From Aquitalea aquatilis (GTDB lineage Bacteria > Pseudomonadota > Gammaproteobacteria > Burkholderiales > Chromobacteriaceae): a stretch of DNA of 64,000 nucleotides. Where the stretch lies: the NCBI RefSeq assembly GCF_005155025.1, contig NZ_CP039731.1:2356001-2420000 (forward strand). Reading direction: 5' to 3'. Shown here piece by piece: positions 5,952 to 8,849 of this stretch. Below the pieces are notes generated by a model that ran no database searches, was not told where the DNA came from, and saw only the letters and a program-made list of their open reading frames with translations. Each line of letters begins with the position of its first letter. The first letter of the stretch is position 1. Position numbers and translations under genes: made by a program.

Positions 5952-7340
5952 TTATGGGGTTTGACGGTGCAGGCGGCGGCGACTCTCGCGCGCCAGATAG
6001 CTGACCAAGAGCAGGGCTGCGATGCTCAGGCTGAATACCAGTGCCAGCCAGAAGCCGTAGATACCCATGGGGGCGACCAGCCAGTCGGTTAGTCCCAGCG
6101 TGATGCCCAAGCCCAGCCCGATACCCCAGAAGGCGGTGATGTGAATGATCATCGGCACTGTGGTCAGTTTGTAGCCGCGCAGCGCGCCGGAGGCGATGGT
6201 CTGGGCGGCATCGGTCAGCTGGAATACCGCAGCGAACAGCAGCAGGGCCGAGCCCATGGCGATCACCTGCGGGTCGGGCGAGTAAACCGCCATGATGTCC
6301 TGGCGCAGCCACAGCACCAGCAACATGGTGCCCACGGCGGTGGCCAGCCCCACCAGCAGGCCCACGCCGGCCACGAAACGGGCGCCATGATAATCGCCGG
6401 CACCGGCCCGCTGGCCCACGCGCACGGTAAGGGCGGTGGAGATGCTTTGCGGCAGCATGTAAATGATGCTGGAGAAGTTCAGCACCGATTGATGGCTGGC
6501 CACCACCGTCATGCCCAGCTTGGCAATCAGCAGGGCGATAAAGGAAAACAGGCTCACTTCCACAAAGAAGGACAGGCCGATGGGTAGGCCCAGCTTGAGA
6601 AATGCGCCATAGCGCTTCCAGTCCGGCCAGCTCATCTGGCGGGTCAGGCCGTAGGGGCGGAAATGGCGGTGCCAGCAGATATAGGCAAACAGGGTGAGGC
6701 AGTTGAACCAGAACACGATGCCGGTGGCCCAGCCGCAGCCGGCACCCCCCAGGCGCGGCAGGCCGAACAGGCCGTGGATCAGGGCGTAATTGAGCGGAAC
6801 GTTCAGTGCCAGGGCAATAAGGCTCACTACCATGATGACGCGTGGCCGGTTCAGGCTGGAAGCATAGGCGTGCAGGGCGCGGTGCATCATGGCAGCCGGC
6901 ATGCCGACAGCAGCGCCGGTGATGAACAGCATCACCTTGTCTTCCACATCGGTGGGCAATTGCAGCCACAGCCGCAAGGGATGCTCGGCCAACAGCATGG
7001 CAGCCGCACCGAGCAGGCCGACGAACAGGCCGAACCAGATGCCTTGTCTGCCGGTTTCGCCTAGCTGATCGGTCTGGCCTGCACCCAGTTGGTGGGACAG
7101 TACCGGATTGAGCGCGGTCACCACCCCCATCAGCGTGACATACACGGTAATGAAAATGCTGGCACCCAGTGATACGGCAGCCAGATCATCGGTGCTGACC
7201 CGGCCAGCCATCACGGTATCGACAAAGCCGGTGGCGACCTGGGCGATCTGGGCAATCATCATCGGCAGGGCGAGGCGGCTGATCTGGCGGGCTTCGGTGC
7301 TGATGGCACCGGGAGGGGCGCTTTTCAGTTGCTGCAACAT
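5952..7340 (-). CDS. MATE-family multidrug/Na+ antiporter, NorM type
   Basis: A 462-residue inner-membrane exporter with twelve predicted helices arranged as two related halves. The start MLQQLKSAP is followed by the NorM-like EARQISRLALPMMIAQIAQ and GFVDTVMAGR; the second half has LPIGLSFFVEVSLFSFIAL and a GALRGYK motif. NorM pumps export cationic drugs and dyes in exchange for Na+ or H+. Start ATG 7338-7340. A TATAAT hexamer lies inside a short inverted repeat 31-51 bases upstream, which is the likely promoter region. Confidence 0.93.
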   Translation of the reverse strand: MLQQLKSAPPGAISTEARQISRLALPMMIAQIAQVATGFVDTVMAGRVSTDDLAAVSLGASIFITVYVTLMGVVTALNPVLSHQLGAGQTDQLGETGRQGIWFGLFVGLLGAAAMLLAEHPLRLWLQLPTDVEDKVMLFITGAAVGMPAAMMHRALHAYASSLNRPRVIMVVSLIALALNVPLNYALIHGLFGLPRLGGAGCGWATGIVFWFNCLTLFAYICWHRHFRPYGLTRQMSWPDWKRYGAFLKLGLPIGLSFFVEVSLFSFIALLIAKLGMTVVASHQSVLNFSSIIYMLPQSISTALTVRVGQRAGAGDYHGARFVAGVGLLVGLATAVGTMLLVLWLRQDIMAVYSPDPQVIAMGSALLLFAAVFQLTDAAQTIASGALRGYKLTTVPMIIHITAFWGIGLGLGITLGLTDWLVAPMGIYGFWLALVFSLSIAALLLVSYLARESRRRLHRQTP

Positions 7341-7370: not shown

Positions 7371-7391
7371 GCGCTCCATTATAAGGAGCGC
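7371..7391 (-). promoter_or_regulatory. Inverted repeat enclosing a TATAAT hexamer upstream of the MATE gene
   Basis: On the minus strand GCGCTCC (7391-7385) and GGAGCGC (7377-7371) form a perfect 7-base inverted repeat. The spacer contains TATAAT at 7383-7378. The hexamer is a consensus -10, but I find no good -35 at 16-18 bases. The repeat could be an operator for a pump repressor or a hairpin in the leader. Confidence 0.4.
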
Positions 7392-7477
7392 CCGGCTACC
7401 CTGTCTTGCCCAATGGCGACGCCGCGCAACAGCACGGGCGCGCAATGCGGTGCTTGGGCGGCGGCAACACGACACGC

Positions 7478-7777
7478 TCAGAAGCGTACCGGCGTCTCGC
7501 GGCGCAGGTCACAGCTGATGATCAGCTCCTTGCCAAAACGGTTATTGATGGTGAGTGCGTCCATCAGGCCCACGTCATGAATGGTCAGCAGCCGGTTGTC
7601 CAGCTGGCTGTCATAGCCAAGCTGGCTGGCGAAGTCGATCAGTGCTTGCAGCGGCAGGGTAGTGTCGGCGCACAGGGGGGTGGCAGTCAGGCTGCCTTGT
7701 AAGGGGCGTTTTCTTCCCACGGCATCGTATACGGCAAAGGAAAAGTCGCTACAGCTATCTTGCAGGCAATCGTACAT
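7478..7777 (-). CDS. Small protein of unknown function behind a tandem SAM-II-like leader
   Basis: Encodes 99 residues, acidic to neutral with no membrane segment or signal peptide. It begins MYDCLQDSCSDFSFAVYDAVG and ends CDLRRETPVRF, with four or five scattered cysteines but no CxxC pair. I recognise no family. Support for a real gene: ATG with GGAG eight to nine bases upstream, codon use like the neighbours, and a long structured leader (7778-8090) that ends just before it. The following gene (MATE) starts 137 bases further on behind its own -10-like site, so this looks monocistronic. If the leader aptamers are real, SAM level would control this protein. Confidence 0.65.
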   Translation of the reverse strand: MYDCLQDSCSDFSFAVYDAVGRKRPLQGSLTATPLCADTTLPLQALIDFASQLGYDSQLDNRLLTIHDVGLMDALTINNRFGKELIISCDLRRETPVRF

Positions 7778-7830
7778 GGTGAAACTCCATCGGGTATGAG
7801 TGAGCGCTGTTGCGTGCCCGACTCTCCGTC

Positions 7831-7890
7831 AGGCGACGCTTTAGCAGGATTTTTGGGCGCCCTGCAAGTTGTCGATTAACTCGGCGCCTG
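7831..7890 (-). promoter_or_regulatory. SAM-II/SAM-V-like riboswitch aptamer, promoter-distal copy (B)
   Basis: Read on the minus strand: P1 strand GGCGCC (7888-7883), loop GAGTTAATCGACAACTTGC, P1 partner GGCGCC (7861-7856), then CAAAAATCCTGCTAAAGCG and GTCG. CGAC in the loop can pair with the final GTCG, giving an H-type pseudoknot. The order of P1, GA-TT-A, CTTGC, P1', AAAAAT and GCTAAA is the conserved core of the SAM-II/SAM-V group. The ATG of the 99-residue gene lies about 53 bases after the aptamer. Confidence 0.6.
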
Positions 7891-7892
7891 TG

Positions 7893-7910
7893 CTCCGGCC
7901 TTGGCCGGAG
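7893..7910. repeat. Perfect 18-base palindrome between the two aptamers
   Basis: CTCCGGCC-TT-GGCCGGAG forms an 8-base-pair hairpin directly upstream (minus-strand sense) of aptamer copy B. No T-run follows, so it is not an intrinsic terminator. It may isolate the two aptamer folds or bind a protein. Confidence 0.6.
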
Positions 7911-7977
7911 ACGGTAAAACCAGAACTGCTTACAACAAACAACATGCCCGATGTCGCATAGCGAGCGCACTATGACG

Positions 7978-8017
7978 GAAAAAGAAAAACCCGCCGGCCA
8001 GAAGAGCGCAGCGGGTT
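7978..8017 (-). terminator. Intrinsic terminator directly after the first aptamer
   Basis: On the minus strand AACCCGC (8017-8011) pairs with GCGGGTT (7994-7988) across a 16-base loop and is followed by TTTCTTTTT. It lies only about 8 bases after aptamer copy A and 95 bases after the stop of the exonuclease-like gene at 8112. It could be that gene's terminator or, more interestingly, the expression platform of aptamer A. Confidence 0.7.
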
Positions 8018-8024
8018 ATCCGAC

Positions 8025-8080
8025 TCACGCTTTAGCTGGCATTTATAGTGCGCCCAGCAAGCTGTATCAAATCGGCGCAT
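8025..8080 (-). promoter_or_regulatory. SAM-II-like riboswitch aptamer, promoter-proximal copy (A)
   Basis: Minus-strand sequence: P1 strand GCGCC (8078-8074), GATTTGATACAGCTTGC, P1 partner GGCGC (8054-8050), then ACTATAAATGCCAGCTAAAG and CGTG. The elements GATTT, TTGC, GCGC, ATAAATG and AGCTAAA occur in the same order and nearly the same spacing as in the crystallised SAM-II RNA from a metX leader (recalled from the literature). GC/GC and CA/TG pairs can form the second pseudoknot stem. It is followed at once by an intrinsic terminator, as expected for transcriptional control. Confidence 0.65.
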
Positions 8081-8111
8081 GAGAAAAGATTATTCCTGAC
8101 CAGATAGCCTG

Positions 8112-8849
8112 TCAAGCCCTGTTGTGTGCGGGCCACTGTTGCAGAAATTCCTGCCAGTGTCCGCCGGTTTGGCTCAGCAGTTGTGCCAGTTTTTGTTCAT
8201 GCTGGCTGCGAGTGAGTGCAGAAATCTGCCCTTGCAGCGCGGCCAGGCGCAGCCACATCAGGTAATGGCAGGCAGCGCGCTGCGCGCTGCTCTCCAGCAG
8301 ACCGGGCAACTGTCCTGCCGCTGCGGCAGCCCAGGATTGCGGCGCATCGTAATCGGCAATGCGCGGCAGGCCGCACAGGCCGGCCATTTCCTGCTGCGGC
8401 ACACAGCCGGGCTGTGCGCCCTGGCACAGCAGGCGGCTCAGCTCCAGCGTCTGGCCGAACAGGCCTGTGGGGCCGCCAGGAAACGCCACATTGTGCAACA
8501 TGGCCCGGTGGCGCAATACCGGCAACAGCAACTGGGAACCCTGCCAGCTGACAATTTGCGGCATATGTTCATTCAGCAGTGCCGCCAGCGCTTGCAGCAT
8601 GGCCGCTTCGTCCTGTCCGGCTGCCGACTGGTGCAGCGCCACTTCCTGCCGGCTATGCAGCACGGCATTGACCGCGACCACGCGATGCAGGTGGTAGGGC
8701 ATGAATTCATCCGCCCGGCTGGCCCGGCTGCGCTGCAGGGCAAAGTAGACGACATCGGCATCGCTGATTTGCGCATCCAGCTGATACAGGGTACGGATGC
8801 CGGCGACATCGGGCAGGGTCTGGATATCCAGGGCGAGTAAGGGAATCAC
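8112..8849 (-). CDS. Degenerate PolB-like 3'-5' exonuclease homologue, probably inactive
   Basis: A 245-residue relative of the predicted PolB-like exonuclease family (PF10108 type). The fold landmarks remain: LALDIQTLPDVAGIRTLY at the N-terminus, EFMPYHLHRVVAVNAVL, IVSWQGSQLLLPVLRHRAM, and a C-terminal HYLMWLRLAALQGQIS. The catalytic acids that the family normally has are mostly gone: Exo I D-I-E is D-I-Q, Exo II F-D-L-P is L-L-L-P, and the Exo III acidic C-E-x-D before the last helix reads S-A-Q-R-A-A. The segment between Exo II and III is also shortened. The reading frame is intact with normal codon use, so it is a maintained protein, perhaps only DNA- or protein-binding. Divergent from pcnB. 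Confidence 0.65.
   Translation of the reverse strand: MIPLLALDIQTLPDVAGIRTLYQLDAQISDADVVYFALQRSRASRADEFMPYHLHRVVAVNAVLHSRQEVALHQSAAGQDEAAMLQALAALLNEHMPQIVSWQGSQLLLPVLRHRAMLHNVAFPGGPTGLFGQTLELSRLLCQGAQPGCVPQQEMAGLCGLPRIADYDAPQSWAAAAAGQLPGLLESSAQRAACHYLMWLRLAALQGQISALTRSQHEQKLAQLLSQTGGHWQEFLQQWPAHNRA

Follow-up and report, generated by a model that had tools for sequence, protein, structure and literature searches.

Why should two imperfect copies of one RNA element stand in tandem before the gene of a small protein that belongs to no known family? The question is raised by a leader on the minus strand of the window, that is, the whole 64,000-nucleotide stretch of the Aquitalea aquatilis genome that was analyzed. 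The original prediction had read the two copies as tandem SAM-II/SAM-V-like aptamers, and inspection of the sequence finds both of them where it had placed them. The answer that we favor, with a probability of about 0.8, is that tandem riboswitches of the SAM-II family shut off an operon of the small protein and a MATE transporter when S-adenosylmethionine (SAM) is plentiful; both SAM as the ligand and the OFF logic are what we infer.

Read 5' to 3' on the minus strand (7478-8115), the locus consists of a promoter-like sequence, copy A, a terminator, a spacer of ~90 nt, copy B, a hairpin, a Shine-Dalgarno (SD) sequence and the open reading frame of the 99-aa protein, with the MATE gene next (Table 1). 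A predicted 3'-5' exonuclease gene (PF10108) lies upstream of the leader on the same strand. The end of copy B is about 55 nt from the ATG at 7777, in agreement with the predicted ~53 bases. The original prediction had included neither the promoter-like sequence before copy A nor the hairpin that follows copy B, and it had not named MATE as a conserved partner gene.

Table 1. Features of the leader and of the genes that follow it, with their positions in the window and the basis of each assignment.
Feature	Position	Strand	Basis
Promoter-like TTGACA (8115-8110) / AATAAT (8094-8089), spacing 15	8087..8115	-	at least 9/12 consensus matches
Copy A, SAM-II-type aptamer, A subtype, CAGCUUGC	8022..8081	-	R2 59.2 bits; RF00521 19.6 bits (below cut-off); conservation
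Intrinsic terminator 3' of copy A	7978..8017	-	fold; motif in 48/48 family copies
Copy B, SAM-II-type aptamer, B subtype, ACAACUUGC, extra pairing CGAC/GUCG = P2a	7831..7890	-	R3 56.4 bits, R2 44.2 bits
Hairpin GCCUGAC/GUCGGGC directly 3' of copy B	7816..7834	-	fold
GGAG, likely Shine-Dalgarno of the 99-aa gene	7785..7788	-	sequence
99-aa protein gene, no known family	7478..7777	-	in 60/61 family genomes
Promoter-like AAGACA-18-TATAAT before the MATE gene	7378..7407	-	10/12 consensus matches, weak
NorM-like MATE family transporter, conserved second gene of the module	5952..7340	-	PF01554, TIGR00797

The letters of copy A include GCGCC (8078-8074), which forms P1 with GGCGC, and then GAUUU, CUUGC, AUAAAU and CCAGCUAAAGCG. 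Those of copy B are GGCGCC (7888-7883), which forms P1 with GGCGCC, followed by GAGUU, CUUGC, AAAAAU and CCUGCUAAAGCG. When copy A is compared with the SAM-II fold, P1, the pseudoknot P2, the U-rich third strand, UUGC and GCUAAA are all present; copy B also has the SAM-II fold and core letters, as judged by its score with model R2 and by the wide set of B elements described below. The letters that contact the ligand in SAM-II and SAM-V structures (U-rich third strand, UUGC and GCUAAA; passages of PMC6061858, with further material on structure and mechanism in passages of PMC11508383) are kept in the alignments of relatives.

Three models built from relatives were used in the searches. R1 pools copies A and B of the relatives, R2 consists of 19 leaders of methionine genes (A-type only, none from the window's family) and R3 consists of nine metK leaders. 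The R2 and R3 leaders had themselves been collected by means of R1 or a B pattern, so that their independence is limited to the gene contexts. In the 64-kb window, R2 finds copy A (59.2 bits, E 4.9e-16) and copy B (44.2 bits, E 1.5e-11), and its next best match has 8.8 bits (E 0.67), which bears out the prediction of two SAM-II-type aptamers in tandem. In the 4.36-Mb genome, R2 picks out three places, the two copies and, between them in score, a metN leader (46.2 bits), before the scores fall to 15.2 bits, and in the window's family all 61 genomes match it at E 1e-4. R3 prefers the other copy, giving copy B 56.4 bits vs 38.9 for copy A. The same order is found among relatives: with R3, all 20 B copies from 20 family stretches ranked above all 17 A copies, and with R2 the A copy ranked above the B copy in 17/17 family stretches holding both. 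Therefore, A and B are two subtypes that have been kept apart, and homology and architecture together support the view that both copies are genuine SAM-II-type aptamers of different subtypes.

The Rfam models are less sensitive here. RF00521 (SAM_alpha) gives copy A 19.6 bits (E 0.057 in a search of 701 bases against 4227 families; cut-off 36). In that search no RF00521 match is listed for copy B of the window. Across the window as a whole, nothing reaches an Rfam cut-off. A match of equal score, 19.6 bits, at G000 4262348 lies inside plsX and is read as chance. RF00521 is listed in 12 of the 17 family stretches that bear copy A, once above 36 (L072, 37.3 bits), in all eight stretches of other families, once above 36 (L245, 38.4 bits), and for four family B copies with 15.4-22.0 bits. 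The metZ, metN and metE leaders tested with RF00521 all fell below the cut-off (7/7). This shows that the Rfam SAM_alpha model under-calls a large clade.

The 99-aa protein is encoded by 60 of the 61 family genomes. Leaders from 50 of these 60 genomes were cut out and aligned, a few more being available as short stretches, and the alignments omit identical or near-identical leaders. Copy B is present in 50/50 leaders and copy A in 48/50. In the family alignment, 91.1% of the cells are paired vs 88.2% in shuffles and 34-44% when the sequences are slid. Three pairs have a two-sided change within the family, a number reached in 235 of 500 shuffles and thus not above them; pair changes inside the family are few because the core is almost invariant. 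Compensatory changes had been named as a check on the two aptamers, and they appear once relatives beyond the family are included and not within the family alone. The joint lack of a model match and of such changes was to speak against the aptamers; both were found, though not by the Rfam cut-off, since RF00521 mostly stays below 36.

Pairing in copy B can be followed in a wide set of 86 distinct B elements, in which P1 pairs 1-5 were required by the script and are therefore paired by construction. P1 pair 5 is GC in 45, UA in 33 and CG in eight of the 86, and pair 6 is paired in 71/86 by several pair types. In P2 the counts are 53 AU, 23 GC, two UA and one CG of 86. The first extension pair of P2 is paired in 81/86 (AU, GC, UA, CG and GU), and the P2a pairs are formed in 84, 75, 81 and 55 of the 86. 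The form GAGUU, in which G replaces the first U of the third strand, occurs in 35/86. In L045 (genome G035) and in the Chitinimonas leaders L244-L246, copy B tolerates an additional stem between P1 and the pseudoknot that reaches ~60 nt in L045 and recalls the P3 of SAM-V.

Transcription control at copy A is well supported. P1 of copy A starts 10 nt after the promoter-like AATAAT. At least 9 of 12 consensus matches are found at this place in 48/48 family copies A vs 7.5% of 1000 random positions, and TTGACA itself occurs in 45/48. A simple consensus scan did not report this promoter because the best spacing is 15 and the rule of the scan is 16-18; its output also lacks the terminator after copy A. 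The terminator was part of the original prediction, and the evidence agrees: it folds to -21 kcal/mol (z -3.5; 2/200 shuffles as low), and CCCGC...GCGGG-TTTT follows copy A in 48/48 family copies, the terminators being otherwise unlike each other. Its 5' arm, CCCGC (8015-8011), could base-pair with GC(U)GGG (8058-8053) within the aptamer, and CUUGC(N)GGG, which is able to pair with CCCGC, is found in the aptamer of all 48 copies. These leaders are GC-rich, however, and CCCGC by itself turns up in 542 of 2000 random 60-nt stretches of them, so that an antiterminator is something that we infer as plausible only.

The way in which copy B may act is more difficult to explain. The hairpin that follows it (z -2.9; 0/200 shuffles as low) is kept through the family, and its arm sequences vary among relatives, although this was not counted formally. 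It can be extended by GCGU/ACGC into the 3' strand of the aptamer, where it would compete with P2a, and this competition is our best guess for the expression platform of copy B. Other platforms were considered and rejected. Direct masking of the SD, which is ~45 nt downstream of the aptamer, is one: in 25 family leaders SD accessibility was 0.42 free and 0.42 locked (three lower, four higher). The corresponding values are 0.28 free vs 0.18 locked in 10 metK leaders (four lower, two higher) and 0.11 free vs 0.12 locked in four AAA ATPase leaders, a fifth such leader, which lacked an SD, being left out. In 28 leaders, copy B paired less well with its own initiation region (-16.8 kcal/mol) than with the regions of other species (-18.2 kcal/mol). 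In the window, CUUGCAGG of copy B is an 8-letter complement of codons 4-7; this is read as chance because relatives beginning MYDCQ do not have it.

The gene contexts outside the family display some clear patterns. R1 matches occur in 177 of 369 genomes drawn from the class and in 147 of 200 drawn from the order. By inspection, 25 of the best 29 class loci outside the family adjoin a methionine gene (23 metZ, one metN and one metE). The following genes were tallied by tblastn for 179 distinct leaders of all of the fetched loci, a non-random sample in which the window's family is over-represented; leaders with <250 nt downstream were excluded, and those that did not differ in the first 120 nt downstream were counted once. 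Among the query genes, metZ, metK and metX are over their NCBIfam cut-offs, metE and metH are fragments running off the locus, and metN has metN as its best NCBIfam family, below the cut-off. The 74 leaders with A alone precede metZ (44), metN (13), metX (3), metE (2), metH (1), the small protein and/or MATE (5) or none of these (6), so 63 of the 74 precede a gene for MetZ, MetN, MetX, MetE or MetH. The 36 leaders with B alone precede an AAA ATPase gene (14), metK (10), the small protein and/or MATE (3), metH (1) or none (8). When A is followed by B (66 leaders), the small protein and/or MATE comes next in 55, metK in two, the AAA ATPase in two and none in seven. Two AA leaders and one BB leader precede no tallied gene.

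A restricted B pattern was narrowed to GATTTAA, leaving out most of the window's family, which has GAGTTAA. With it, metK follows B in 10 of 44 contigs, nine of them with B alone, and a search of viral contigs gave no match. Before metK, B has no terminator, and a -10-like CTATAGT is closely upstream in 8/10 metK leaders by inspection. Judged by its sequence and contexts, copy B is a distinct SAM-II subtype that elsewhere precedes metK.

Several other occurrences deserve mention. The third SAM-II-type element of G000 (C1:2486041-2486090; L114 1501-1550) is outside the window, directly before metN-metI, which encode a methionine ABC importer, and a GC-rich inverted repeat precedes the start codon there. 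B-type elements, with or without copy A, are found before a MoxR-like AAA ATPase gene in MAGs of beta- and other proteobacteria (L168, L171, L172, L178, L179, L185, L188, L192, L194, L196, L198 and L202; PF07728 in L172), and the SD looks buried in a hairpin in several of them. Genome G307 (L158, L159, L249 and L250) has ten R1 matches in five close pairs; the genes that follow them are not methionine genes, and it looks as though copies of the tandem had spread through the genome.

The target, as had been predicted, is outside methionine biosynthesis: the 99-aa protein with a NorM-like MATE transporter downstream. The window's 99-aa protein has no Pfam match at E 1, no NCBIfam match (one weak hit, E 0.12, among 21 family members) and no sequence match in the PDB. 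Its predicted fold is beta-alpha-beta-beta-alpha-beta (AlphaFold2, mean pLDDT 80), and the best Foldseek hits (E 2.3e-3) are designed binders and generic ferredoxin-like folds, which assign no function. The MATE protein is over the cut-offs of PF01554 and TIGR00797; its best hit is the NorM equivalog NF000263, below the cut-off of that model (474 of 950 bits).

The module of tandem RNA, small M[YF]DC protein and MATE is found in at least four GTDB families, the window's own (f1), f187, f203 (Chitinimonas) and f213, the MATE being recognized by Pfam or NCBIfam in the window and in f187, f203 and f213. In G556 (f231), B alone precedes the small protein and MATE. The small proteins of f187, f203 and f213 have 16-27% identity to that of the window, and the family profile of the 99-aa protein does not find them at E 0.01; the relationship between the two groups shows in a profile-profile comparison (probability 98%, E 1.9e-13, 55 columns). 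In one f187 genome, the reading frames of the small protein and MATE overlap, which argues for one operon. In the window, the two genes are 137 nt apart with a promoter-like site between them, of a kind that shuffles of the region contain 0.5 times on average; this site could uncouple MATE from the riboswitches. The tandem-pump arrangement is kept in many related bacteria, and this suggests that the pump is tied to methionine metabolism.

The most likely mechanism is a two-stage, SAM-dependent OFF control that acts on transcription at copy A and then in a second step at copy B. Transcription would start just before copy A. With SAM bound, copy A would lock the GC(U)GGG strand in P1/P2, leaving the CCCGC arm free, and the terminator would form. 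With no SAM, GC(U)GGG would pair with CCCGC as an antiterminator and RNA polymerase would presumably go on. Read-through transcripts would then meet copy B, on which SAM may hold P2a against the following hairpin. The small protein would then be translated less, or its message would be less stable, and the same would apply to MATE if the two genes are transcribed together.

Three other explanations can be weighed against this one. Copy B might be a SAM-V aptamer that hides the SD in its pseudoknot, so that the pair would be SAM-II plus SAM-V as in Pelagibacter. The order is indeed the same, with a terminator after the first aptamer and none after the second; the H-type pseudoknot is the same; and copy B of some relatives has a stem between P1 and P2 like P3 of SAM-V. 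However, RF01826 (SAM-V) matches neither the locus nor the relatives' copies in the Rfam searches of family and other-family stretches, and its sole match in the genome lies elsewhere, with 21 bits (cut-off 41). In addition, the SD is outside P2a, copy B has ACUUGC in place of the SAM-V-like A18/AUUGC, the window's copy has no P3 stem, and copy B matches both the SAM-II-type model and the metK-leader model. The SAM-V part of the original prediction is therefore given up for copy B, and we consider this explanation very unlikely.

It is somewhat less improbable, although still unlikely, that copy B is a SAM-II relative with a changed ligand or logic (e.g., SAH, another adenosine compound or an ON switch), which would make the pair a two-input gate. 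B is clearly a subtype separate from A and is placed second, and copy B of the family has G for the first U of the third strand. In SAM-V, this U pairs weakly with the U that contacts SAM (passages of PMC6061858). Against a new ligand, the letters around the sulfonium (U9, U20 and A48 in SAM-V numbering) are conserved, and metK, which B-type elements precede, is an expected target of SAM feedback. The least probable explanation, and one that we would hardly expect to hold, is that the element serves mainly to make a small RNA, which would be copy A up to the terminator, and that the gene downstream matters less. With a strong promoter-like sequence and a terminator, an RNA of about 100 nt would be abundant, and passages of PMC9373788 report the SAM-II sRNAs RZ and RA in Sinorhizobium as a precedent. 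However, in the two family leaders without copy A, which are from the same genus (g3), copy B and the gene are kept, and two other g3 genomes have only copy B in the stretches fetched. Furthermore, the one family genome without the 99-aa gene, G023, has no tandem either and shows a single match.

Within the favored reading of a two-stage SAM control, we can tentatively go one step further, at slightly less than even odds. Copy B would be a separate SAM-II subtype with a platform of its own (no terminator, SD outside the pseudoknot); together with copy A it would gate, in two SAM-dependent stages, the expression of a conserved orphan small protein and a NorM-like MATE pump. If this is true, the methionine/SAM cycle may have in this pump a transporter that had been missing, with the small protein as its partner, and some beta-proteobacteria may use the B subtype as the metK regulator that had been missing there. 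Low SAM would be the physiological address of the orphan protein and of the MATE transporter. Passages of PMC4239095 give metK and metNIQ of beta-proteobacteria as having no known regulator; in the genome of the window, metN has an A-type element in front of it, and 10 of the fetched contigs have a B-type element in front of metK.

The kind of system is already known. The original prediction rested its novelty on a SAM-II pair in a beta-proteobacterium and on a target outside methionine metabolism. The former ground is weakened, since SAM-II with terminators in beta-proteobacteria (passages of PMC2258182) and doublet SAM-II riboswitches, 44 examples, in part of which the first aptamer carries a terminator and the second an RBS platform (passages of PMC9481103), are in print. 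As to the target, no paper naming a small-protein/MATE operon as a SAM-II target was found in literature that was mostly without subscription papers and supplements.

Compared with SAM_alpha (RF00521), the RNA described here has the same P1, H-type pseudoknot, order GAUUU...CUUGC...AUAAAU...GCUAAA and terminator after copy A, but most of its clade is below the cut-off, and the long C-G P2a of many alpha-proteobacterial SAM-II RNAs (passages of PMC6061858) is absent. Passages of PMC4239095 confine SAM_alpha to Rhizobiales and Rhodobacterales and describe as new the metXZ element, which in beta-proteobacteria stands in front of metX and metZ. That element has the same position before metX/metZ, the same pseudoknot topology, a downstream terminator and the same bacteria; it differs in being described as new and without a ligand, and its identity with the SAM-II-type RNA would follow from position and description. 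The Burkholderia sRNA Bp2_287 (RF02424), as Bp2_Cand287, precedes methionine genes (passages of PMC3521395). Among the matches listed, at least 21 of 29 overlap an R1 SAM-II-type match, at least 21 of 29 on the opposite strand and 0 on the same strand, and all 29 are below the 70-bit cut-off. Because of these overlaps, all on the opposite strand, the results indicate that the metXZ element and Bp2_287 are the same SAM-II-type RNA as here, and RF02424 probably describes the wrong strand of it. SAM-V (RF01826) shares the pseudoknot core and the second position in a tandem, whereas copy B lacks a match to its sequence model and an SD in P2a. In the Pelagibacter tandem, as here, the first aptamer has a terminator and the second has none, and the same ligand class is expected for both; here, however, the second aptamer is a SAM-II subtype and not SAM-V, and the target is an orphan protein with a MATE transporter and not a methionine gene.
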